NCBI RefSeq assembly: GCF_003287935.1
Contig: NZ_CP030287.1
Coordinates: 6,289,227 to 6,353,226 of the forward strand
Length of the DNA stretch: 64,000 bases
Direction: 5' to 3'
Source: Streptomyces sp. ICC1
GTDB taxonomy: Bacteria > Actinomycetota > Actinomycetes > Streptomycetales > Streptomycetaceae
Part shown: one piece after another, positions 4,470-16,975 of the stretch
How positions within the stretch are numbered: position 1 is the stretch's first letter
How the letters are laid out: each line of letters starts with the position of its first letter
Position numbers and translations under genes: made by a program
The notes under the pieces: model-generated
What the model saw: only the letters and a program-made list of their open reading frames with translations
Databases searched by the model: none
Told to the model about the DNA's origin: nothing

Positions 4470-6470
4470 CTGAGCGAGGACCAACGCAGTCGCTTCGGCC
4501 GGTTCGCGGGAGGACCCGGACGAGGGACAGCTCGCCGGATCCTTCCTGCTCGACCAGACCACCCGGCGCCGGGCGATGGCGGCCAAGGGCGCGCGGAACC
4601 GGATCGGCTGGGCGGTCCAGCTCGGGACCGCCCGATAGCTGGGGACGTTCCTGGACAACCCCGAACAGGTACCCGGAGTTGTGGTCGACTACGTCGCCGA
4701 GCAACTGGACTTGTCGCCAGCGGAGTTCGCCGGCTACGACATGAAAGAGACTCGCTGTGACCACCAGGAGCAGATGCGCGAGGGGTACGGGTACACGAAG
4801 TTCGAGTTCGACCAGTGGTTCGCACTGGCCCGCTGGATGTACCAGCGGGCGCGGATCGGCTCCGAGCGCCCGACCCTGCTGTTCGACCTCGCCACCAAAC
4901 GCCTGGTGGAGAAGAAGGTGGTGCTGCCCGGGGTGGCCGTCCTGGAACGGCTGCTCTCCGGCTCGCGCGAGCGCGCCGAGAAACGCCTGTGGGCCACGCT
5001 GGCCGCCGCCCCGACCCAGGAGCAGGCCGCCGCGTTGCAGCGCCTGGTCGTCGTCCCTGCAGGCAAGCGTCTGTCCGAGCTGGGCCGGCTGCGGCGCTCA
5101 CCCCGGGACATCACCGCGCGCGGGGTGGGCAAGGTCATGGAGCGGTACGAGGCGCTGAACACCTTCGGCGGGACGGCGTGGGACCTGCCTGCAATACCCC
5201 CGGACGGCTCCAGACACTGGTTGGTCCACTTCGCGCGGGCCGCCCGCGCCCAGGCCGTCTCCGACCTCGCCGGGGACCGGCGCCTGGCCACCCTGGTGGC
5301 GTTCGCCGCGGTGATGCCGCAGGTTGCCGCGGACGAGGCGATCGAGGTGCTTCGACCTGGTGATGGGCGACCTGATCCGCTCCTCCAGCACCAAGATGAC
5401 CAAGCAGCGGCTGCGGACCCTCAAAGACCTGGACGCCGCCGCGATCCTGCTGCGCGAGATGTGGATCGCGGTGTCCTCGGCCGCCGCCGACCCTTCAAGC
5501 GACATCCGCGCGACGCTCGACGCCATGGACGTCGGCCCGTTCCACGCGGCGGCCGAGACGGCCAAGCTCCTCGCCCAGGAGCCCGACGACGGCGTCGAGC
5601 AGATGCTCGCCGCCCGCTACAACACCACCGCCTGCTTCCTGCCCGACCTGCTCAAGACCTTCGAGTTCGAGTCGAGCCCGGCGGGCGACCCGGTGCTGGA
5701 CGCGCTGGCGTTCGTGAAATCCCTCAAGGGACGGCGCCGCCCCATCCAGGGGTGGAGGTCCCGGCCAGGTTCCTGACCTCCGCCTGGCGGCGCCTGGTCT
5801 TCCCGCCCCCCGCCGATGCCCGTGGCCAGCGTCGAGAAGCGCGCCCTGATCGTCGCCTCCACCGAGGCCTCGCGCACCGCCCTGCACCGGCACGAGGTGT
5901 ACGTGCCGGGCCTGCGCAAATGGGGCGACCCCAACGCCCGGCTGCGGGGCGACACCGCGTGGGGGGCAACCCGCTCCCGCGTCTGCTGGGAACTCGACCT
6001 CGACCTGAACCCCGACAAGATCCTGGCGGGCTGGACCCGCCGCCTGGACGCTGCCCACCGTGAGTTCGCCGACCGCCTGGCCGCCAACCCCGCCGTACGG
6101 ATCGAACAGCAAAACGGTCGCGACCGCATCATCCTCACCGGCCTGGACCGCCTGGACGAACCCGCCTCCCTGCGTGAGCTCCCCAAAGAGGTCGAGGCCC
6201 GCCTGCCCGCCGTCGGCCTACCCGAAATGGTGTTGGAGGTGAACTCGTGGGTGCCCTACCTCGGCGACTTCACCCACGTCTCGGAAGGCAACTCCCGCAT
6301 GGACGACCTCGAACTGTCCGTGGACGCCGTGCTCACCACGGAGGCCACCAACGTCGGCGTCGACCGATCGTCCACGACGGCGTCGACGCGCTCAGTCACG
6401 ACCGGCTGTTCTGGGTCGAACAGAACTACCTGCGCGCGGCCACTCGTTTGACAGACCCGACCGAAGCGGT
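4470..6470 (+). pseudogene. Decayed Tn3-family transposase (TnpA), N-terminal two-thirds
   Basis: The DUF4158-type N-terminus starts near 4470 (LSEDQ). A frameshift lies near 4510, and TAG at 4636-4638 stands where this family usually has Tyr in RYLGTFL. The long frame from 4681 (VDYVAEQLDLSP) shifts near 5340, again near 5770-5816, and again near 6360. The last recognisable part is RLFWVEQNYLRAAT at about 6410-6440. The catalytic DDE domain, resolvase and terminal repeats are not visible. It is dead. Confidence 0.85.
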
Positions 6471-6555
6471 TTCGATGGCGACGTCGAAATCCCGCTCGGT
6501 AATTGGAGCCACAGGCCCCCCACTGGGCGAGATATTGGCCACGAAGATCGGAAGA

Positions 6556-7998
6556 TTACCTCCGGCCAGCACGAATAGCGCAGCGCCGCTGAGGAGCTGA
6601 AACGGTGCAGTTTGACGTGATCGCGATGCCATTGGGTACGAGCCGCTCGAGGCCGCCAGCGAGATGGTTGCGCACGCGGAGGTGTCCTGAGGCGGAGTCC
6701 CGGGTCACCAAGGTCGCCGATGCGCCGCCGTCAAGGTTTACACCGTCGGAGCAGTTCAGCTGAGCGAGGAGCCGTGCGAGTTCGTCCACCGTCAGTCCGC
6801 TGGATCGGCCTTCCCGCCCATCCGTGGACAACAGCCGCAGAGTGCGGCCCCCATCGGCGATGCCGGCAGCGCTGCGGGGCTGTGCGGTGACACTGTCCAG
6901 GCCGACCGCAGCCCGGTGGTCCCGCAGCAGCACTTGGCCGCCCAGCGCAAAATCGAAAGCGCCGCCGCTGCCGAGCGGGGCGAGACGGTAATCGATCGTC
7001 ACCGGGGTTCCGGGGACAAGGTTGCGCAGCAGACGGGCGCCCGCTTCTCGGCCGACGAGAACACGCTCGCCTGGAGCAATGCTTCCGGTACCGGGTGTGG
7101 GCGACCCCGACCGGACGAAGCCGTCTCGGACGGTCACTTCGTAGGTGTCCTGCGAACAGGGCGCCCCACGCCTTTCGTCCGTACCGCAGACAGCGCGGGC
7201 TCGGGAAACCCGGCCCCACTGTGAGGTGAACATGCCAACCGAACCCACCGGAAGTGCATACTGGTTGAGGCCGCGCAGCGGCATCCGACCGTGCGGACTC
7301 TGCACGTGCCCCTCCAGCGTGAGCCTTCCGGTTCGGGCCACCCCGTCCTGTCCGACACCGATGACGTCCTCCGTCGTGCTCCCGCGGGGAGGTGACAAGC
7401 CGAATCTCTGCCCCTCAGGCACAGCGGCTTTGATGGGCTGCCCTGAGGCAACAGCCGGACCTGAGGCGGCATAGGTCACCTCGACGCCATGATGCTGCGC
7501 TTCGCTGATGTTGAAGAAGTCCCCGTTGATGGCGGCAACCGCACCCCGCTCCCTGGCCATCCGGGACACGGTGTCCCTCTTGGAGACCGCGCCCGGGTGG
7601 AGCAGGCCGGCTCGCACGCCGGGCCAGCCCAAATCGATCGTCAGCAGGTGCACTCGTGTATCCCCGTGAGAGGTCGACACCGTGAACGTCCGGTAGTCGA
7701 CGCCGGGTACAACCTTCTCCACTGCGGCAAGAGCGCCCGAAGCCGCGGAATAGCGTACCTGTCGGCTTCCGCCGACCCTGCGGGAGAGTGACTCACTGTG
7801 GGGCGCCGAGCTCGAAGTAATACCGGGAGCCGCGCGATACGGGCCGGGGACTCCAGGCACCCTCCTGTCCGACGAGATGGCCGGAGCGCGTACATGTGAG
7901 ACCGCAGAGTTGGCGACAGCGGGTTGGGGATTCGAAGCCGCTGCTGCAAGTGCGGAAATCACGGCTCCAGCGATGTACAACTTCGAGTGCTTGTTCAC
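6556..7998 (-). CDS. Secreted phosphodiester glycosidase (NAGPA) family protein
   Basis: A 480-residue exported protein: an N-terminal signal peptide to about residue 30, a poorly conserved stretch, then a phosphodiester glycosidase domain from about 100 with AAINGDFFN and DGVNLDGGASATLV, the hallmark motifs of this fold. Family members split sugar-phosphodiester bonds in glycoconjugates or wall polymers; the substrate here is unknown. GTG at 7998 gives the signal peptide directly. The gene is isolated between transposon remains, with a Tn3 pseudogene tail-to-tail and an IS3 fragment just upstream, which suggests acquired DNA. Confidence 0.8.
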   Translation of the reverse strand: MNKHSKLYIAGAVISALAAAASNPQPAVANSAVSHVRAPAISSDRRVPGVPGPYRAAPGITSSSAPHSESLSRRVGGSRQVRYSAASGALAAVEKVVPGVDYRTFTVSTSHGDTRVHLLTIDLGWPGVRAGLLHPGAVSKRDTVSRMARERGAVAAINGDFFNISEAQHHGVEVTYAASGPAVASGQPIKAAVPEGQRFGLSPPRGSTTEDVIGVGQDGVARTGRLTLEGHVQSPHGRMPLRGLNQYALPVGSVGMFTSQWGRVSRARAVCGTDERRGAPCSQDTYEVTVRDGFVRSGSPTPGTGSIAPGERVLVGREAGARLLRNLVPGTPVTIDYRLAPLGSGGAFDFALGGQVLLRDHRAAVGLDSVTAQPRSAAGIADGGRTLRLLSTDGREGRSSGLTVDELARLLAQLNCSDGVNLDGGASATLVTRDSASGHLRVRNHLAGGLERLVPNGIAITSNCTVSAPQRRCAIRAGRR

Positions 7999-8046
7999 CC
8001 GAGAACACCATCATGCAGAAACGTTCACCACCAACGAACATCGCAG

Positions 8047-8338
8047 CGTGTTGGACAACCTGTCGAGGCAGGATCTCCCGTTCGAGCTGCCATTCCTTCT
8101 CCGCCTTGGCCAGCCGGGCATTCTCCGCCCGCAGCCGGGGCAGCTCGGCCTCGGTGTCCTGCGACGCGCCGGAGGCGGCCGGACGGACGTCGGCATCACG
8201 CACCCAGGTCCGCAGCGTCTCGGGGTTGACGTTCAGATCGGCCGCGACGTCCCAAAACGTCCGCCTGCCGACCGAAGTCCGCCACAACGCGATCGCGTCA
8301 GACCGGAACTCCGCACTGTACTTCGAGGACCTTGCCAC
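8047..8338 (-). pseudogene. IS3-family OrfA fragment
   Basis: From GTG at 8338 the frame reads SKYSAEFRSDAIALW, then a helix-turn-helix (VAADLNVNPETLRTWVRDA) and a coiled coil (LRAENARLAKAEKEW), the standard OrfA order. Similarity fades after about residue 93 (EREIL), and no OrfB follows on this strand. It ends just before the start of the glycosidase gene. Confidence 0.8.
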
Positions 8339-8346
8339 GTGGATCT

Positions 8347-8381
8347 ACACCTTCCAGGATCAACAAGATCCTGGAAGGTGT
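8347..8381. repeat. 15-bp perfect inverted repeat upstream of the IS3 OrfA start
   Basis: Arms at 8347-8361 and 8367-8381 (ACACCTTCCAGGATC and its complement) flank AACAA. On the minus strand the 3' arm contains GGAAGG, the likely ribosome site of OrfA. A transcript entering from outside would fold this site away, a known way for insertion sequences to mute read-through expression. CCACGTGG occurs on both sides. Confidence 0.7.
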
Positions 8382-8552
8382 GTCCACACCACGTGGATCA
8401 CCTCAGCTCAGCGTTACTACCGAATGTGAGACAGAGCCGTTCGATGGACAGACCCTTCGGTTCCGGTCGGGCGCCCGACCCGCCCGGCGGTATCGAAAGT
8501 TGTCAACCAAAGGAGGTAGTGAATGGATTCCGGTGTCGGTCACAGTGGGACC

Positions 8553-8824
8553 ACGCCAACATCCGCCTCGGGACACCGGTTCTGGCCGACCTCGGCTACG
8601 TCGGGGCCGGTGGAACGTTCGCGGTTCCCCGCCGACGACCGCCCCGCCCGGACCTCACCACCGGGCAACGCTCACTCAACCGGGCCCACGCCCGACTCCG
8701 CTACCCCGTCGAACGCGGCATCGCACGACTCAAGACCTGGAAAATCTTCCTCCGCGCCCGCTGCAGCCCCAACTGGCTCACCCAAGCCGCCAAAGCCATC
8801 CTCACCCTGGAGAGCTACCGCTGA
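8553..8824 (+). pseudogene. IS5-type DDE transposase C-terminal fragment
   Basis: The frame ending at 8824 reads PVLADLGYVGAGG, then NRAHARLRYPVERGIARLKTW and a final LTLESYR. This is the typical C-terminus, with the catalytic Glu in PVERG, of Streptomyces IS5-like transposases. The N-terminal two-thirds are missing. A strong ribosome site (AAAGGAGG, 8511-8518) followed by ATG at 8523 belongs to another frame and is probably the start of an unrelated gene cut by this insertion. Confidence 0.75.
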
Positions 8825-9008
8825 AGATCCTCACTCACTGGTTCGGCTGGCATGAATGGTGGGGAATCCGACGTATCCAAATCCGGTCGGATCTGTACAT
8901 GATTTCAGCGGTAGAAACCCTGGATGTCAAGCGATGGTTCACTTGTTTCATCGGACGTCGGATCCCTGTCCACCCATGAAACTTCCAGTCAATTTTGGAG
9001 AATTTAGA

Positions 9009-9200
9009 ATGAGCCTTACCCAGCTTCGGTCCATGAATTTCCCTGCCCTCGAGGCCGAGGTGGCGGATGCGACATTCGCCGAGGGGATGAGCGCTGCGCA
9101 GTGCGCCTACATCAAGACGCTCAGCTTCACGAGTGCCGTTTATTCCTGCGGTGGCACGCCGAAAAACTACTCGGACATCTACAACCGCGAGTGCCGATAG
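9009..9200 (+). CDS. Glycocin-like precursor peptide (sublancin-type core)
   Basis: A 63-residue ribosomal precursor. GGAG at 8996-8999 precedes ATG at 9009. Residues 1 to about 26 are an acidic leader; the rest contains only three Cys, at 32, 47 and 62. The core aligns with sublancin from memory: AQC at 30-32, CGG at 47-49, NY at 53-54, CR at 62-63. The C32-C47 spacing equals sublancin Cys7-Cys22, where Cys22 carries the glucose. The positions of the sublancin 14-29 disulfide are Ser39 and Tyr54, so one disulfide pair is absent. The leader end is not a clean GG; Gly26 (EGMS) is the best candidate region. The next genes encode a C39 exporter and a glycosyltransferase, which supports the call. 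Confidence 0.75.
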   Translation: MSLTQLRSMNFPALEAEVADATFAEGMSAAQCAYIKTLSFTSAVYSCGGTPKNYSDIYNRECR

Positions 9201-9209
9201 ATCCACACT

Positions 9210-9244
9210 GTTGCGCCCAGCCTGCACCGCAGGCTGGGCGCAAC
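9210..9244 (+). terminator. Intercistronic hairpin after the precursor gene
   Basis: A perfect 16-bp stem (GTTGCGCCCAGCCTGC at 9210-9225, complement at 9229-9244) with loop ACC, starting 10 bases after the precursor stop and ending just before the exporter ribosome site. No T-run follows. It probably acts as an attenuator or 3' mRNA shield, giving more precursor than exporter message. Confidence 0.8.
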
Positions 9245-9264
9245 GGCCGCAGGAGAGATATACG

Positions 9265-11409
9265 ATGCGCTTCCGGAAGTTTCATACCCATCAAACAGGA
9301 GAGACGGACTGCGGGCCGGCATGCGTACGCACAATTCTCCGCCGGCACGGGGTTGCGGTGGACACGGCCCTCCTGAGAGAGTCCGTCGGCCTCGGCAACC
9401 GTGGCGCGAGCATGCTGCGCCTGAGCCAGGTGCTGTCCGGGTACGGATTGGACAGCGAGCTCCTGCGCCTCGATGTGAGCCAGTTGCGGACCGCGCTCGA
9501 TGTAGCCGGCCCGGCCATCATCAGAGTGCATATCGACAGCCGTCCGCACTTCATCGTCGTGCACGCTGCGGACGAAGGCCGCTTCACCGTCAGCGATCCT
9601 CTCTTTTCAAGGCCGTCGCGCATGAGCGCGGATGACCTCGCGGAGGTGTTCACCGGGGACACCTTGATCACACCACGCCCGGCCAGGCGGCCCGGCGTCC
9701 GTGTCAGAGTTGCCGGCTCCGGCACGCAGCAGGTCGTCTGGCCCCTCGTCCGCGCCTCCTGGCCGGTGCTCCTGGCCATACTCGGGCTCACCGCTGTGGC
9801 TGCGGCGGTCACCGTGGTCGTCGGCATCTTCATGCAGGTGGCCATCGACCGCGTCGTTCCCGGCGGATCGCCGGGTCCGGTGGACACGTTGGCCGCCCTG
9901 ACCGGCGGAGCGATCCTCGCCGCCGCTGGCGCCAACTACCTGCGAGGCCGCATGAGTGTGACGCTGGCGCAATCGATGCAGCGCCGCCTCTCCCTGCACT
10001 TCACCCGCAAGTTGCTGGGCCTCCCCAGTTCCTTTCATCAAGGCCGGCGCACCGGCGACCTGGTGAGCCGGCTGGACGACATCCAGCAGATCCAGACGGT
10101 GGCCGCCTCGACCACCGTCTACGCCGCCGTCGACACAGGCGTCATCATTGGTGTCGGGGCGTACCTACTCCAGGGCAACACGTACGTCGCCTTGGCACTC
10201 ACCGCGTCGCTCGTGGGCAGTGTCCTGATCTCTCTGTGGCACTACCCACAGATCCGGGCACTGGCCGAAGAGGCGTTGCAACGTGATGCCACGCTCAAGG
10301 CCGAATTCACCAACACCCTCCAGCACCACGAGCAGATAGCCGCCTTGGAGGCCCGGGGGTTCACCGAGCAACGCGTCAACGAACGGCTCGCGCGAAGGAT
10401 CGCAGCGGAACAGCGCCTGGGATTCCTCGGCACCCGCCACTCCGCCATCAAGACCGCCAACCTCGGCCTCACCACCGTCTTCGTCATGTGGCTCTCCCTC
10501 CGCCAGGCCATGGCGGGAGTCGTCAGCCTCGGAGAGGTCTTCTCCTCAGTCGCCCTGGCCGGATACTTCCTGGCCGCGGTGGATGCCCTCACCACCCTTC
10601 AGATCACCCTCCAGCGGCTTCAGGCTGCCCTGGGGCGCTATCGGGACGTCATGAATCAGAAAGGTGCCATGAACCCGAATCCAGACCGGATCCCATGTTC
10701 CGTGTCGGCCCCGAATTCGGCACCGGCGCGTACCGACATCGTGGTCAAGGAGCTCTGCGTCACATACCCCGGTGCGGCCCGCCCGGCGCTCGACGGTTTC
10801 ACACTCACCGCCGAGCAAGGCAGCTCCGTGCTCCTCACCGGCCCCAACGGATCAGGCAAAAGCACAGCGCTGAGGACCATGGCCGGCCTCCTCGCCCCCA
10901 CCGGAGGGTCCATTCAGGTCGGCTCAACCATGGCCGTCCAGATGGGAGGGCGCACGCCGGATCGACAGATTCTGTACCTGAGCGAGGTCCCGTTCCTCGT
11001 GGCCGCTGACGTACGGGAGAACCTCACGCTTGGTGTGGCCGGCACAGATACTGACATCGCCCGCGCTTGCCGACTCGCCTGCTTCGACGAGGTTCTGGAG
11101 ACTCTCCCCGGCCGACTGAGCTGGCTCGTGAGCGAAGACGGCACTGGCATGTCCCGCGGGCAGGCGCAGCGACTTGCCCTGGCCCGTGCCATTCTCCGCA
11201 ACCCCGACGTCTACCTTCTCGACGAGGCCTTCAGCGGGATCGATCACACTACCGTTCACCGGATCTGGGCCAACTTCGCGGCCCTACCCGCAACAAAGAT
11301 CGTCGTCTCGCACACCAGCGCAGTGGACCTCGCCTTCGATCAAATCGTCGCTCTGGACGCCCGGCCCTCCCTCCAGCCGGCGCCAACTGCCCCCACACGC
11401 GAGCTCTGA
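9265..11409 (+). CDS. C39 peptidase-containing ABC exporter (SunT-like)
   Basis: A 714-residue bacteriocin exporter-protease. The N-terminal C39 domain has Gln10, catalytic Cys16 in TDCGPAC, His95 in PHFIVV and Asp111 in SDPLF. The membrane domain runs from about 150 to 450. The ATPase has Walker A GPNGSGKST, signature MSRGQAQR and Walker B VYLLDEAFSG. It would cleave the leader and export the core. ATG at 9265 has AGGAG at 9251-9255; the frame stays open upstream through the precursor gene, but only this start gives the C39 domain its normal N-terminus. The glycosyltransferase gene starts one base after its stop. Confidence 0.95.
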   Translation: MRFRKFHTHQTGETDCGPACVRTILRRHGVAVDTALLRESVGLGNRGASMLRLSQVLSGYGLDSELLRLDVSQLRTALDVAGPAIIRVHIDSRPHFIVVHAADEGRFTVSDPLFSRPSRMSADDLAEVFTGDTLITPRPARRPGVRVRVAGSGTQQVVWPLVRASWPVLLAILGLTAVAAAVTVVVGIFMQVAIDRVVPGGSPGPVDTLAALTGGAILAAAGANYLRGRMSVTLAQSMQRRLSLHFTRKLLGLPSSFHQGRRTGDLVSRLDDIQQIQTVAASTTVYAAVDTGVIIGVGAYLLQGNTYVALALTASLVGSVLISLWHYPQIRALAEEALQRDATLKAEFTNTLQHHEQIAALEARGFTEQRVNERLARRIAAEQRLGFLGTRHSAIKTANLGLTTVFVMWLSLRQAMAGVVSLGEVFSSVALAGYFLAAVDALTTLQITLQRLQAALGRYRDVMNQKGAMNPNPDRIPCSVSAPNSAPARTDIVVKELCVTYPGAARPALDGFTLTAEQGSSVLLTGPNGSGKSTALRTMAGLLAPTGGSIQVGSTMAVQMGGRTPDRQILYLSEVPFLVAADVRENLTLGVAGTDTDIARACRLACFDEVLETLPGRLSWLVSEDGTGMSRGQAQRLALARAILRNPDVYLLDEAFSGIDHTTVHRIWANFAALPATKIVVSHTSAVDLAFDQIVALDARPSLQPAPTAPTREL

Positions 11410-11410
11410 C

Positions 11411-12598
11411 ATGTCCTCCGAGCTCCCGAACCCGCAGGTCACCGCAGTGGTTCTGACCTACAACGAAGAGAAGAGGCTCGGTGCATGCCTACGTGCTCTG
11501 AGCGCAGACGTTGATGAAGTGTTGTTGATCGACTCGGGGTCCACGGACGGAACGCTTGCCATCGCCGCCAGCCAGCCTCTGCCCGTCCGCGTGGTCCACG
11601 CACCCTGGCGCTCGGATTTCGCGCACCAGAGGAACCTGGCGTTCTCCCACATCCACCGAGGATGGATCCTCATGGTCGACGCCGATGAGGTCCTCGCCCC
11701 TACCTCGGGGACGACGACCGTTCGGCAGGTTCTGGCACAGCTCGACCACCGCCAATCCCACCCCGACCTCGTCGGCTGTCCAGAGATTCAGGACGTGCAC
11801 GACAGGGCCGGACACTCCACCGACCTGCCACGGATACTGCGGGCGCAGACGACGCTGCGCTATCGCGGCCGCATCCACGAACGACCCTACGACGCGGCGG
11901 GAAACCAGCCTGCCACGGTCGCCTTGCCTATCCGCCTTACGCACTACGGATACCTTCCCGAGGTGATCGCGGAACAGAGCAAAGAGGAACGTCACACCAG
12001 CCTGCTCAGACTCTGTCGCGTCGAGGAGCCGGACAATCCGAAATGGGTCTTCTATCAGGTAAGAGCCGAACTGGCGGCGCTCTCCGACTCAACCCAGGCC
12101 CAGGAACTCTTCTCCTGCCTGGCCACGGCCATGGCGCACTGCCCCGACGATGCTCCTGACTACCTCACGGAACGGGTTGAGGACAGCTGGAGCTTGATGT
12201 GTGAGCTCGCTCTTCACTTTGGTGGCGCGGAGCAGATCGCCTCATACTCAGCGCGCCTCGAGGACACCGGGCGTCACGCTGAAGCCGTGTACTACCGGAC
12301 GGTAGTGGCGATGAGTGCAACCCTGACCCGCCTGTCCCACCTGACCGAGCAAGTCCTCGGCCCCCTTGCCCGGGGCACACGTGGCACGGCACGTGACATC
12401 GGCCGTCTTCACGAACTGCAAGGGCTACTCGCGCTGGCGTGCGGCCGCACCGATATGGTCCCGCGAGCCCTGGAACAGGCAGTGGCTCACGGAGCCGGTT
12501 CGGTGCTCATATCCGAACTCGCACGGTTGCAGAAACTTCTCAGTGCCACCCCTTCAGACCACCAAACCGTCCACCACTCACAGGAGAAATCATCATGA
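11411..12598 (+). CDS. Family 2 glycosyltransferase, likely peptide S-glycosyltransferase (SunS-like)
   Basis: A 395-residue cytoplasmic enzyme. The GT-A domain shows TAVVLTYNEE at about 11-20, DSGSTDGT from Asp41 and a metal-binding DAD at 90-92, followed by IHERPYD and a helical, TPR-like C-terminal half with repeated Ala/Leu helices. Sublancin-type S-glycosyltransferases share this GT2-plus-helical layout. Given its place between a C39 exporter and a Cys-Gly-Gly precursor, I infer that it sugars Cys47 of the precursor. The sugar donor cannot be read from sequence, and a role on lipid or wall glycans is not excluded. Confidence 0.8.
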   Translation: MSSELPNPQVTAVVLTYNEEKRLGACLRALSADVDEVLLIDSGSTDGTLAIAASQPLPVRVVHAPWRSDFAHQRNLAFSHIHRGWILMVDADEVLAPTSGTTTVRQVLAQLDHRQSHPDLVGCPEIQDVHDRAGHSTDLPRILRAQTTLRYRGRIHERPYDAAGNQPATVALPIRLTHYGYLPEVIAEQSKEERHTSLLRLCRVEEPDNPKWVFYQVRAELAALSDSTQAQELFSCLATAMAHCPDDAPDYLTERVEDSWSLMCELALHFGGAEQIASYSARLEDTGRHAEAVYYRTVVAMSATLTRLSHLTEQVLGPLARGTRGTARDIGRLHELQGLLALACGRTDMVPRALEQAVAHGAGSVLISELARLQKLLSATPSDHQTVHHSQEKSS

Positions 12599-12804
12599 TG
12601 CTGGGACCTGGACTCGCGGCAATGCCCATGCCCGAATGGAAGGTGCGCACAGCGAAAGGAAAGGAGTACGTGGCAGACAGTGAAGCAGAAGCAAGGGAGA
12701 TGGCCGGCGAGTACGGCCCGGGGTCTTCGGTCTGGGAAAGGCAGGCTTACCGGGGCATCGCCCTGACCACCATCTCCTCGACAGGCTGGTACCAGGTGGC
12801 CTGA
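12595..12804 (+). CDS. 69-residue soluble protein ending the glycocin operon
   Basis: ATG at 12595 overlaps the glycosyltransferase stop (ATGA), and AGGAG at 12582-12586 is well placed, so it is translationally coupled. The product has no membrane helix and no Cys. It begins with a Gly/Met-rich stretch, then a charged stretch (WKVRTAKGKEYVADSEAEA) and an aromatic C-terminus. No family was recognised. By position it may be an immunity or accessory factor. SunI of sublancin is membrane-bound, so it is not the same solution. Confidence 0.7.
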   Translation: MMLGPGLAAMPMPEWKVRTAKGKEYVADSEAEAREMAGEYGPGSSVWERQAYRGIALTTISSTGWYQVA

Positions 12805-13324
12805 CGACGCAGCCTCCGCCGGGCGACTTGCGTCCAGGAATCCGCCATCTTCCCGTGCGCCAGTGGCCGGGTTTCGGGCCGGTGGCGTCGGGAATCTGTT
12901 CCAGTCCGGCCCCGAAAATGATTGTCTCGGAAAGTAACGATCTCGGGGCCTTACCCGCCTGCACCAGCTACCGCGCCCAGCCGATCCCCAGCTCGGCGAG
13001 CGCGGCGAGCTGCGCAGCAAGGTTCGGCGCCTACACGGACGCGCTGGCCCTAACCGCAGGGGTCGCCACGGAGCTTCGTCGTTCCGTACAGCCCGCACCG
13101 ACCAACCCCACAACCCCACAGTCAGGTTGGAAAGGCTCAGTAACTACCCGGCCTTGGGGAAACTTCACTTGTGAGGTCACCCCGTCAACCGGAGATGCTT
13201 CGTTGCGTACACGACAGCCTCCAGGGGATCACCAGCCGTCGTGGCCGATGACGCCGGTGATCACCCTGACCTTGAGTCAGCCCTGTGTGCCGTGGCGACT
13301 CAGGCGATGCGAGGGGCCGATCGT
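12805..13324. other. 520-bp intergenic stretch with possible helicase-associated remnant
   Basis: No convincing gene is present. On the minus strand 13024-12968 reads QLAALAELGIGWAR and a stop, resembling the end of helicase-associated-domain proteins of Streptomyces, but a stop lies close upstream, so it is at best a relic. GGCCCCGA at 12908-12915 and its complement at 12943-12950 form a weak inverted repeat. Confidence 0.3.
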
Positions 13325-13792
13325 TCAGGCGCGGCTGACTGCGAAGTCGACTCGGTTGTCGACTCCGGCGACCTTCACCGTGCCGAAGATCTTGACGACA
13401 CGGGTCGGGAAGAGTGAAGCCGGGTTACAGACGACCTCGGTGCTGTCGCCCTGCCCTGCGTAGGTACGGAAGCTGATGACGCCCTGTCCGCTGGCGTTGA
13501 CGGCGAGGGAGAAGCTGCTGCTCTTGGCTCGGGCGTCGTCACCGGTCCCGAGCTCGACCCGGAGGACATTGCTCAGGAAGACGGGCGTCATGGTCATCGC
13601 GCGGGATTCACCCGGCACCTTGGCCGTGCCCACGAACGGGGTGTCGAGAGCGAGAAGGCCGACGTAGTCGCTCAGGGCACCACCGCATGTATTGGGCACG
13701 GCGGAGGCGGTACTTCCCGTGATCGTGCCGCCGGCGAGTACGGCGGCCAGGGTGAGGGCGCCTACGGTGGCAGTCCGGGTACGACGGAGCAT
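13325..13792 (-). CDS. Small secreted protein of unknown function
   Basis: A 155-residue exported protein: basic N-terminus (MLRRTRTATVG), hydrophobic segment and Ala-x-Ala-type cleavage near residue 30. The mature part is Ser/Val-rich beta-type sequence with two Cys (about residues 34 and 120) that could form a disulfide. I chose ATG at 13792 because it alone gives a clean signal peptide; the upstream extension is arginine-rich shadow. No family was recognised and there is no clear operon partner. Confidence 0.65.
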   Translation of the reverse strand: MLRRTRTATVGALTLAAVLAGGTITGSTASAVPNTCGGALSDYVGLLALDTPFVGTAKVPGESRAMTMTPVFLSNVLRVELGTGDDARAKSSSFSLAVNASGQGVISFRTYAGQGDSTEVVCNPASLFPTRVVKIFGTVKVAGVDNRVDFAVSRA

Positions 13793-14240
13793 GAGAGAAC
13801 CTATCCATTGTCTGCCGCGCGCCGCGATACTGCGGCTGGCGGCATGGGTGTGGCCTCGACCAGGTGGCGGGGCCGTTCCTGCTCCCGCGGCCCAACACAC
13901 CCCAGACAGTGTGGTATTCACACTGCCGGCCCTTGGCCCTCCACTTCGCGCAGTGCGGGAAACGGTGAGCCGGTACCTGTGAGGTTCGCGTTGGCTGATG
14001 CGGTACGCAGTCAGTACTACCCCGGCATACGGAAGGCGAGACGATGAGCACTCGCACAGGTGAACGTCGTTCGAGCACCCGAATTAGCGGGCAGGCGCTT
14101 CGGCCTCAAGGGCACGGAGAATTCTTGTCGGCGCCACTCACAGCACTCGGGTGGAGATACGGCCGATTGCGCAGCACATGGCAGAGGCTTCAAGCCGGTT
14201 CGGCAGGAGTGAGGTGTCCCCCGGAGTGTGGACACGGGGG
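13793..14240. other. Gap between secreted-protein gene and IS3 remnant
   Basis: A 448-bp stretch with no supportable gene. A short frame from ATG at 14044 and an overlapping stretch in another frame (reading IRPIAQHMAEASSRFG near 14150-14200) look like broken coding sequence, but I cannot name them. Confidence 0.4.
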
Positions 14241-14371
14241 TCATGCTGCGAGTGTGAGTTTACGTCCTCGCTGGTGTTGCCGTTCGAATTCGGCGGGTGA
14301 GAGGTAGCCGAGGGCGCTATGGCGCCGGCGGGTGTTCCGCACTCGGTAACAGAAGGCCGTCCCCTCGAAGA
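14241..14371 (-). pseudogene. IS3-family OrfB 3' end fragment
   Basis: The minus strand reads NTRRRHSALGYLSPAEFE and stops at 14241-14243; this is the invariant C-terminal motif of IS3 OrfB. Only about 40 codons remain. Its broken edge coincides with the start of the TerD-type gene fragment, marking the border of accessory and core DNA. Confidence 0.85.
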
Positions 14372-15714
14372 TGGCACCCGCGTACCTGCTGCCACTCTCC
14401 GCCGTCGCCGCTTCCCCGTTCGCGGCCCCGGTCCCGGCCGCCGCGACGCCCTACGCGGGCCCGCCCGACGACACCGCGGGCGGCCCGCCCACCATCAGCT
14501 ACGCCCACCCGCGCCGCCGCACCAGCACCGAACCGCCCGAGCCCGCGCCGCGCCCGGCGGCGCCGCCCGCGCCCGGCGAGCGGCCGCGCCCCGTCGCCGG
14601 GGACGCGAGCGGCTGGTCCATGGAGGAGCGGTTCTACAACCAGGTCTGGGGCATGTTCGAGGACCTGGCGCGCTCGGTCGCCGCCTACCGGGGCGCCGTC
14701 GAGTTCGCCGACTCCCGGATGGACCGCGAGCTCGACGAGGCGCTGTCCGACCCCCGCCACCGCCTCGGCGGCTCCGGCAACGCCGCCCGGGACGCCGCCC
14801 GGGCCCGCCGCGAGGAGCTGGTCGCCCAGGCGCAGGCCGTCCTCGACCGGGACCTCGTCCAGCTCACCGCCGAGACCGAGGTGGTCGAGCCCGCGCTGCC
14901 GGCCGCGTACGCCCGCTGGGACAACCCGGTCTGGCACGCCCACGCCGTGCCCTCCGAGAGCCCGCTGGCCCTGCGCCTCGGCGACCTCCACCTGCCCGAG
15001 CGGCCCGACCTGCGCATTCCCATGCTGGTCCGGGTCCCGCTGGAGCGCGGCCTGTGGATCGACAACGGGCGCACCGGCTCCGAGGCCGCCATGACCATGG
15101 ACACCGACCGGCTGCGCCGGGCCGCCATGGACATGGCCGTCGCGCACGCGGCGCGGCTGCTCGCCGCCCATCCCGCCGACCGGTTCGCCGTCCACGTCAT
15201 CGACGCGGCCGGGGCCGGAGCGGCCTCGCTGGCTCCGCTGGTGCGCGCCGGGGTGCTGGCCGGCCCGCCGGCCGCCGGGGCCGCCGGGGTCACCGAGACC
15301 CTGGAGCGGCTGACCCGGCGCGTGGACCTCGTACAGATGGCGGTGCGGGCCGGGGCTCCGGAGGACCTGCCGCCCGATGTGGACACGTCCGACCAGCTGC
15401 TGGTCGTGCACGACTTCCCGCACGGGTTCGACGACCGGGCCGTCACCCGTTTGCGCTACCTTGCCGATGAGGGTCCGGCGGTCGGCGTGCACCTGCTGAT
15501 GGTCGCGGACCGTGACGAGGCCTCGGCCTACGGGCCGCTGCTCGATCCGCTGTGGCGCTCGCTGATGCGGCTGTCGCCGGTGCCGGACAACCACCTCGCC
15601 GATCCGTGGGTCCACCACGCCTGGACCTTCGAGCCGGACCTGCCCCCGCAGGGCAGCAGGGTCCTTGACCAGGCACTGGAGCGGGTCGCGGCGGCCAGGC
15701 GGGCCGCCCGGTAG
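14371..15714 (+). CDS. C-terminal part of a TerD-type stress protein (5' truncated)
   Basis: 447 residues from the first ATG, with no ribosome site before it; the frame is open only back to 14350, where the IS3 remnant begins. A Pro-rich linker (to about residue 80) leads into a helical region and then an alpha/beta domain with SDQLLVVHDFPHGFDDRAV and VHLLMVADRDE. In Streptomyces such sequence often follows an N-terminal TerD domain. That domain is missing here, so I infer the gene was beheaded by the insertion. It stands before a terC gene, which fits the tellurium/stress theme. Confidence 0.55.
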   Translation: MAPAYLLPLSAVAASPFAAPVPAAATPYAGPPDDTAGGPPTISYAHPRRRTSTEPPEPAPRPAAPPAPGERPRPVAGDASGWSMEERFYNQVWGMFEDLARSVAAYRGAVEFADSRMDRELDEALSDPRHRLGGSGNAARDAARARREELVAQAQAVLDRDLVQLTAETEVVEPALPAAYARWDNPVWHAHAVPSESPLALRLGDLHLPERPDLRIPMLVRVPLERGLWIDNGRTGSEAAMTMDTDRLRRAAMDMAVAHAARLLAAHPADRFAVHVIDAAGAGAASLAPLVRAGVLAGPPAAGAAGVTETLERLTRRVDLVQMAVRAGAPEDLPPDVDTSDQLLVVHDFPHGFDDRAVTRLRYLADEGPAVGVHLLMVADRDEASAYGPLLDPLWRSLMRLSPVPDNHLADPWVHHAWTFEPDLPPQGSRVLDQALERVAAARRAAR

Positions 15715-15826
15715 CGGCCGGGGAGGCCGTGCGGCGGCCCGCCGCACGGCCCCGGATGACCGGCAGCTGACCAGTTCTTGGCGTTCCCTTTACCTTGTGG
15801 GTCCATCCCGGGTACCCTGGTGACTG

Positions 15827-15943
15827 CGGAGGGGAGTATTCCTGCTTTCCTGCTACGGCGTGCCCGTCAATACGGACAGCAATCAGTCCCGGGGCGCCGG
15901 CCCGTGGCCTCCTGGCCGTCCGGGTGGAAGAGACCTCCGGCAG
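15827..15943 (+). promoter_or_regulatory. yybP-ykoY-type manganese riboswitch
   Basis: The leader of the TerC gene has the hallmarks of this class: GGGGAGTA at 15831-15838, GTCAATACGG at 15866-15875 (family GUCAACAUAC), GAGACCTCCGG at 15930-15940, and a closing stem CGGAGG (15827-15832) with CCTCCG (15934-15939). The 3' strand CCTCCGGCAG (15934-15943) is also fully complementary to CTGCCGGAGG (15972-15981), which holds the terC ribosome site. The two pairings exclude each other, so metal binding would free translation. The class is known upstream of TerC and Mn exporters. Confidence 0.75.
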
Positions 15944-15991
15944 CGATGACGCTGACAAAGTGCTGAGCCATCTGCCGGAGGCGTGTAAGTA

Positions 15992-16975
15992 GTGGATGTT
16001 TCGTTGAACCTCTGGGTGCTGACCATTCTCGGTCTGTGCATCCTCATCGGCGCCGATTTCTTCATCGGCCGCAAGCCCCACGACGTTTCCATGAAGGAAG
16101 CCGGCATCTGGACGGTCGTCTGGATCGCCCTCGCCGGACTCTTCGGTCTCGGCCTGCTCTTCTTCGGTCACGGCCAGGCCTCTCAGGAGTTCTTCGCCGG
16201 CTTCATCACCGAGAAGTCCCTGAGCGTGGACAACCTGTTCGTCTTCGTCCTGATCATGGCGAAGTTCGCGGTCCCCTCGCAGCTCCAGCAGCGCGTTCTG
16301 CTGGTGGGCGTACTGATCGCCCTCGTCCTGCGCGCGATCTTCATCGCCGCCGGCGCCGCGATCATCACCAACTTCTCGTGGGTCTTCTACATCTTCGGCG
16401 CGTTCCTCATCTACACCGCGTGGAAGCTGATCCAGGAAGCCCGCAAGGACGAGGAGGAGGAAGAGTTCGAGGAGAACCGCCTCCTCAAGTCGATCGAGAA
16501 GAAGTTCGGCGTCGCCGACCGCTACCACGGCACGAAGCTCTTCATCCGGAACAACGGCAAGCGCATCCTGACCCCGCTGATGGTCGTCATGCTCGCCATC
16601 GGCACGACCGACGTGCTGTTCGCCCTGGACTCGATCCCCGCGATCTTCGGCCTCACCCAGGACCCGTACATCGTCTTCACCGCCAACGCCTTCGCCCTGA
16701 TGGGTCTGCGCCAGCTGTACTTCCTCATCGGCGGCCTGCTCAAGAAGCTGGTCCACCTCAGCTACGGCCTGTCCGTCATCCTCGGCTTCATCGGCATCAA
16801 GCTCGTGCTGCACGCCCTGCACGAGTCGGGCCTGCACGTCCCGCAGATCTCCATCCCGGTCTCCCTGGGCGTCATCTGCGGAGTGCTGGTGATCACCACG
16901 ATCACCAGCCTGATCGCCTCGAAGAAGCAGGCGGCGGCCGAGGCCGCCGCCGACTCGCAGAGCATCGACGCCTAA
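15992..16975 (+). CDS. TerC-family integral membrane metal transporter
   Basis: 327 residues with eight or nine membrane helices and the TerC signatures: SLSVDNLFVFVLI near residue 70 and TTDVLFALDSIPAIF near 205, whose paired acidic residues lie in the membrane. Between them is an acidic cytoplasmic loop (KDEEEEEFEEN). Relatives export Mn2+ to metalate secreted proteins or prevent overload, consistent with the Mn riboswitch in the leader. GTG at 15992 follows GGAGG at 15977-15981. Confidence 0.93.
   Translation: MDVSLNLWVLTILGLCILIGADFFIGRKPHDVSMKEAGIWTVVWIALAGLFGLGLLFFGHGQASQEFFAGFITEKSLSVDNLFVFVLIMAKFAVPSQLQQRVLLVGVLIALVLRAIFIAAGAAIITNFSWVFYIFGAFLIYTAWKLIQEARKDEEEEEFEENRLLKSIEKKFGVADRYHGTKLFIRNNGKRILTPLMVVMLAIGTTDVLFALDSIPAIFGLTQDPYIVFTANAFALMGLRQLYFLIGGLLKKLVHLSYGLSVILGFIGIKLVLHALHESGLHVPQISIPVSLGVICGVLVITTITSLIASKKQAAAEAAADSQSIDA

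Follow-up and report, generated by a model that had tools for sequence, protein, structure and literature searches.

A putative sublancin-related glycocin operon in Streptomyces sp. ICC1 and its relatives with three-cysteine core peptides

The closest described counterpart of the operon analysed here is the sublancin 168 system (SunA/SunT/SunS) of Bacillus subtilis SPbeta, which likewise combines a precursor, a C39-peptidase ABC exporter and a SunS-family enzyme. Actinobacterial glycocin work on the same type of system, and by its titles in the same phylum, has reportedly been presented by Singh & Rao in 2021 and by Sharma et al. in 2021. The first-pass annotation of this DNA had placed the known glycocins in Firmicutes and regarded an actinobacterial one as an extension. 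With such work already cited, this novelty did not stand; what did stand is that no characterised Streptomyces product appears among the literature matches listed, where no title or abstract start concerns a Streptomyces glycocin. Glycocins as a kind are thus already known, and the three-cysteine pattern, the Ser variant and the PTS-gene linkage described below may or may not figure in the earlier actinobacterial work. Sublancin carries its glucose on Cys22 (PMC10373908). Glycocin F, likewise a glycosylated bacteriocin and likened here by description rather than by sequence, contains a nested pair of disulfides and two GlcNAc groups (PMC12457901; PMC5890784), and its likely target is a GlcNAc-specific PTS transporter (PMC5890784). 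Ten glycocins have been shown experimentally in Bacillota (PMC9576775). The std cluster of S. thermodiastaticus (PMC13174530) is another RiPP; in the available portion of that source, the word 'glycocin' occurs only in the reference list.

The stretch of DNA under study (64,000 nucleotides, hereafter the window) corresponds to 6.29–6.35 Mb of the 9.03-Mb single-contig genome. Four genes on its forward strand form the operon, and all four were confirmed with unchanged boundaries: a glycocin precursor of 63 aa (9009..9200), a SunT-type C39-peptidase ABC exporter of 714 aa (9265..11409), a SunS/ThuS-family peptide glycosyltransferase of 395 aa (11411..12598), and a small protein of 69 aa (12595..12804), which is an immunity or accessory candidate. 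The tight spacing reported at first pass was borne out as well, with a single base between the exporter stop and the glycosyltransferase start and a 4-base overlap between the glycosyltransferase and small genes. All four frames are open, and purine-rich, GGAG-type ribosome sites precede three of the four genes (precursor, exporter, and small gene). The exporter adjoins the precursor, at a gap of 64 nt in the window and 59–114 nt in the 20 relative loci with a precursor, and contains Peptidase_C39 (PF03412; 5.8e-21), ABC_membrane (PF00664; 3.1e-27) and ABC_tran (PF00005; 8.6e-23) domains. In agreement with the first-pass annotation, a scan of the four operon proteins and six flanking ORFs revealed no lanthionine, radical-SAM or cyclodehydratase domains. 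Unlike in sublancin 168, the same scan also found no thiol-disulfide oxidoreductase gene in or beside the operon.

The G+C content of the operon region is 61–69% (positions 8000–13500), rising through intermediate values of 65–68% (6000–8000 and 13500–14500) to 72–73% (5000–6000) and 70–79% (14500–16000) in the flanks. Just upstream of the operon lie two insertion sequence remnants, which together span positions 7793–8824: an IS3-type orfA fragment (7793–8338, minus strand; HTH_Tnp_1, 9.5e-10) and a DDE transposase fragment (about 8567–8797, plus strand; DDE_Tnp_4, 2.1e-9). Given these upstream fragments, the operon might belong to a stretch of acquired DNA. A phosphodiester glycosidase (NAGPA) domain protein (6556–7998, minus strand; 7e-26) adjoins the remnants. 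A plasmid origin was considered and rejected: 151 plasmid records hold relatives of the enzyme, every one below 60% identity. Enterococcus accounts for 105 of these 151 records, and Streptomyces is absent both among the ten named genera of 15 and among the 20 plasmid records listed. The window genome holds no second SunS-like enzyme, the next match reaching only 7.7e-7.

We consider the precursor ORF to be real on comparative grounds, because 20 of the 22 relative loci have a homologue, each time 59–114 nt ahead of the exporter; the exceptions are L104, which is IS-disrupted, and L117, which lacks the exporter. Searched alone, the window precursor matches a single Pfam family at E ≤ 1, namely Sublancin (E 0.011; 16.3 bits, cut-off 26.9), and finds no sublancin in the PDB. 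Across 13 family members, the Sublancin model matches four at E ≤ 1 (best 1.5e-5), and the relatives P0133, P0139, and P0142 carry PF19151. P0133, a protein of Streptomyces sp. NRRL B-1347 named 'sublancin family glycopeptide' by NCBI, shares 65% identity with the window precursor. The comparison with SunA proposed at first pass was made with a profile of the 13 sequences, which retrieved sublancin-168 (2mij) as the first match (E 0.0064) among 177,635 PDB sequences, followed by an unrelated domain at 0.12. Profile position 26 pairs with residue 1 of mature sublancin, the alignment extends to the end of sublancin, and the outer cysteines and central CGG of the two coincide. Core homology to a known glycocin is therefore seen through the family profile and not through the window sequence alone.

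From this alignment, the core peptide is predicted to comprise residues 26–63 (9084..9197, plus strand), preceded by a leader of residues 1–25 or 1–26. Family leaders feature a common MSLxxLR motif and end in GG in some members and in GE, GA or GS in others. The window leader ends in A24-E25-G26, departing from the canonical GG/GA/GS and thereby also from sublancin 168. The two ways of placing the cut differ by one residue, since an ungapped alignment to relatives with GG points to residue 25, and the constant glycine to residue 26, as the last of the leader; we accordingly predict cleavage after residue 25 or 26.

The window precursor has three cysteines, Cys32, Cys47, and Cys62, which would be core C7, C22, and C37 with a cut after residue 25. 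Sublancin has five core cysteines, and the places of its C14 and C29 are not cysteines here, so that one of its two disulfides has apparently been lost. We examined this pattern in 34 precursor entries (24 from the protein database, the window precursor, and nine from loci), two pairs of which are the same peptide or core. With counting started three residues ahead of the first core cysteine, this leaves 32 distinct cores; because a Streptomyces precursor profile was used to gather them, they are uninformative on five-cysteine relatives elsewhere. The outer cysteine pair is kept in all 32 cores. At the central position, 25 cores have Cys and the other 7 have Ser, with no third residue observed, and none of the 32 contains a fourth cysteine, as two nested disulfides beside a glycosylated Cys would need. 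Ser-type precursors (P0130, P0136, P0137, P0143, P0144, P0145, and P0147, as well as the L115 precursor) have cores that form one subgroup and end in KGKGPKL or nearly so. Their serine sits where the Cys relatives P0129 and L118 have cysteine (position 20); the central cysteine of the other subgroups is found at positions 16–19, which sets the central position of the Ser subgroup 1–4 residues further from the first cysteine.

Judging from these sequences, the inner cysteine pair of sublancin is missing throughout the set and the central position tolerates serine. The combination of a central Cys or Ser with one outer disulfide fits S- or O-glycosylation at the central position, and Ser-type precursors are expected to be O-glycocins. 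Peptide S-glycosylation is rare, and the natural Cys-to-Ser exchanges at one site make S- versus O-transfer by SunS-type enzymes testable with natural pairs. In addition, the family provides a minimal sublancin scaffold with a predicted single disulfide.

The 395-aa enzyme contains a Glycos_transf_2 domain (Pfam, 7.2e-18). In the comparison with SunS that had been proposed together with that of the precursor, a profile search returned ThuS (2.8e-66) and SunS (1.7e-64), both over nearly the full length, with GmaR third at 7.5e-31. The predicted structure (pLDDT 92.4) has the SunS-family architecture of a GT-A fold and a C-terminal helical domain, and fold comparison also places the enzyme with ThuS and SunS. 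ThuS (thurandacin; PDB 7msk) is its best match by sequence and fold, at 22–23% identity over the fold alignments. The window enzyme has nothing corresponding to the residues of ThuS before position 50; similarly, the first ~45 residues of SunS are missing from it and from its relatives P0005 and P0053. With 131.8 bits, the window enzyme stays below the NCBIfam equivalog cut-off of TIGR04195 (350 bits), which is exceeded in none of 396 Actinomycetota genomes and in one of 14 controls, presumably B. subtilis, the home of SunS. At 1e-12, TIGR04195 matches 42 of the 396 Actinomycetota genomes, the two best being Streptomyces.

Enzyme relatives are sparse, occurring in 12 of 392 sampled Streptomyces genomes and, at E 1e-15, in 11 of 394 genomes of the family (2 of 17 genera), including a weak match in G524 (7e-16). 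The precursor profile likewise matches 12 of 377 sampled Streptomyces genomes, and these are the same 12 as for the enzyme, a linkage that supports the glycocin reading. In a midpoint-rooted tree of 54 enzyme rows, 52 form one clade apart from two outgroup rows, and the named rows of this clade are Streptomyces, Kitasatospora or Streptantibioticus. Within this tree, the window enzyme branches beside a 41-row clade that includes enzymes of the second subgroup.

We collected 22 relative loci, 19 of which are distinct once L109, L110, and L116 are dropped as repeats of L007, L009, and L008, respectively. Group A consists of the window, L103, L104, and L105, which lie in unrelated genomic places and each include a homologue of the small gene. 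Group B comprises 16 distinct loci, 15 of which have one or two EIIC PTS permease genes adjoining the operon (L006–L009, L011, L106–L108, L111–L115, L117, and L118, with L117 represented by the enzyme alone); the remaining locus, L010, begins too near the precursor to reveal EIIC genes. L009 comes from the S. thermodiastaticus strain that carries the std cluster.

The operon is thus very probably a glycocin locus for the production, glycosylation and export of a sublancin-related antibacterial peptide. The basis of this reading is the gene content, the families of the enzyme and the exporter, the core homology to sublancin, and the conserved central Cys/Ser. Of the sunA/sunT/sunS logic put forward at first pass, the enzyme family, the exporter and the core homology held; the three-cysteine core, the leader end and the equivalog cut-off depart from it. 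Further points against the glycocin reading are the precursor score below its own family cut-off, the shortened enzyme, the confinement of the Ser-type cores to one subgroup with its shifted central position, and the lack of an oxidoreductase gene and of a proven immunity gene in the operon. For the window peptide, we infer glycosylation, the sugar, the disulfide, export and activity as follows. The SunS-like enzyme would bind the 63-residue precursor in the cytosol and move one sugar from a nucleotide sugar onto the central cysteine, Cys47 (core Cys22). Cleavage after residue 25 or 26 by the C39 domain of the exporter would then remove the leader, and the ABC part would carry the core out of the cell. 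Outside, the outer cysteines Cys32 and Cys62 would form a single disulfide, yielding a one-disulfide S-glycosylated bacteriocin that would act on related bacteria.

In a further difference from sublancin 168, the operon contains no immunity gene known to Pfam, with an unrelated small gene (12595–12804) instead. A self-immunity role for its product is a tentative assignment that we place somewhat short of an even chance. It is favoured by the overlap with the enzyme gene and by close homologues (59–67% identical) at the loci of the three nearest relatives in group A; that of L103 is encoded on the other strand, some 1.1 kb upstream of the precursor. Weaker relatives speak against such a role: a profile search at 1e-6 found small-gene relatives in 13 of 392 genomes, two of which hold the operon and 11 of which do not. 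In eight stretches from seven of those 11 genomes, no C39 exporter was found; two of the eight are contig ends that cover one side only, and the ORF caller missed the homologue in two. The protein has no Pfam or NCBIfam match, and no Pfam family was matched by the three members scanned (window, L103, and L105). Its AF2 model predicts a beta-beta-alpha-beta-beta-beta order (pLDDT 73) and has no Foldseek match at E 0.001; a search of a large protein database, which needs shared exact words, found only the protein itself. For enterocin F4-9, the demonstrated immunity protein EnfI has 98 residues and is described as possibly a membrane protein; the small protein is unlike it as far as its sequence shows. 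The Streptomyces stretches with small-gene relatives and without a C39 exporter are those of L181–L190 and L191–L198.

It is improbable, if conceivable, that the locus is degenerate, with glycocin-derived genes in an operon past making an active peptide. The missing SunS N-terminus in the window enzyme, P0005, and P0053 would fit such decay, as would the AEG leader end and the IS fragments just upstream. Moreover, other loci are broken: L104 has transposase genes in place of the precursor and the N-terminal part of the exporter, and L117 has the enzyme but neither precursor nor exporter. Against decay of the window operon, its four frames are open, most of its genes keep a ribosome site, the precursor motifs are kept, leader ends other than GG (GE, GA, and GS) are common in the family, and the enzyme model is of high confidence. 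Very unlikely indeed is an enzyme that glycosylates another target, such as a cell-wall glycan, beside an unmodified class II-type bacteriocin leaving through the C39 transporter: GT2 domains are general and three of 13 precursors touch the Lactococcin model (best 0.0052) and one Bacteriocin_IIc (0.086), but ThuS and SunS rank far above TarS by sequence and fold, so that the structure nearer to wall-glycan transferases named at first pass as counter-evidence did not emerge, and the enzyme and precursor share their 12 genomes and the cores their restriction to Cys or Ser.

Returning to the glycocin reading, the EIIC genes of group B show three arrangements. In 11 of the 15 loci, the operon lies on the same strand downstream of the last EIIC gene, as does the lone enzyme of L117; in L114 and L118 it is inverted downstream of the last EIIC gene, and in L115 it is inverted between the two EIIC genes. 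In the window genome this core locus lacks the operon and consists of an EIIB-like gene and two EIIC genes followed by MBL and CysM. We provisionally take the group B EIIC genes to be the GlcNAc permeases nagE1 and nagE2, by synteny with S. coelicolor and by their operator sites. The linkage might also stem from a single ancient insertion that was later rearranged, or from a hot spot for insertions. A special glycocin-linked EIIC permease conferring immunity was considered, as the EIIC next to the operon seemed to differ from the core copy of the window genome; it was rejected, given 86–91% identical copies in operon-free genomes such as G003, G015, G066, G009, and G005.

The DasR consensus is A(G/C)TGGTCTAGACCA(G/C)T, and nagE1 and nagE2 are among the listed targets (PMC4398421). 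Operator sites near the group B EIIC genes resemble those listed for nagE1 and nagE2. DasR-like sites with at most two mismatches to the 12-base core TGGTCTAGACCA also occur within 130 bases upstream of the precursor in 8 of 15 group B loci (L006, L007, L008, L011, L108, L114, L115, and L118); the best site has three mismatches in L010, L107, and L111–L113, four in L009, five in L106, and five to six in the three group A loci. Mismatches summed over group B amount to 34, compared with 72.7 (sd 2.9) for shuffled sequences, a value as low as 34 occurring in none of 500 shuffles, and over the ten less similar loci to 23, compared with 48.2 (sd 2.3); as the test was post hoc, following the PTS linkage, and the loci are related, these figures are not a probability. 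Assigned to the nearest gene, the 59 sites with at most two mismatches in 18 loci comprise 46 at EIIC/EIIB genes, eight before precursors, and five elsewhere. Upstream of the precursor start, the eight sites occupy roughly four positions (31, 51–52, 58, and 71 bases), and that of L115 is common to the precursor and the divergent EIIC gene. An earlier, weaker scan (16-base consensus, 350 bases upstream) singled out no locus, with control fractions of 0.04–0.50 in group B and 0.27–1.0 in group A; its control stretches were drawn at random from the same loci, which themselves contain EIIC operators.

The PTS linkage and DasR-type sites of group B suggest a PTS target or GlcNAc control in Streptomyces, the genus best known for antibiotics. 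The window operon has neither, so this lead stays with group B. A broader proposal, which we hold to be rather unlikely, is that Streptomyces glycocins form a separate one-disulfide class with a Cys or Ser acceptor, tied to N-acetylglucosamine. One subgroup would lie beside GlcNAc PTS permease genes, often with its own DasR-type operator, and a GlcNAc signal would trigger production of its peptide, whose target or route of resistance would be the GlcNAc PTS permease; the window operon would represent the dispersed branch of this class. The permease and DasR linkage in the relatives offers a testable answer on the peptide target and the timing of production. As a separate observation on the permeases, EIIC copies at 1e-60 number two in 33 of 37 genomes compared and four in the window genome, where two extra EIIC genes lie outside the core locus (G000:C1:8803258-8804505 and 5650745-5651959).
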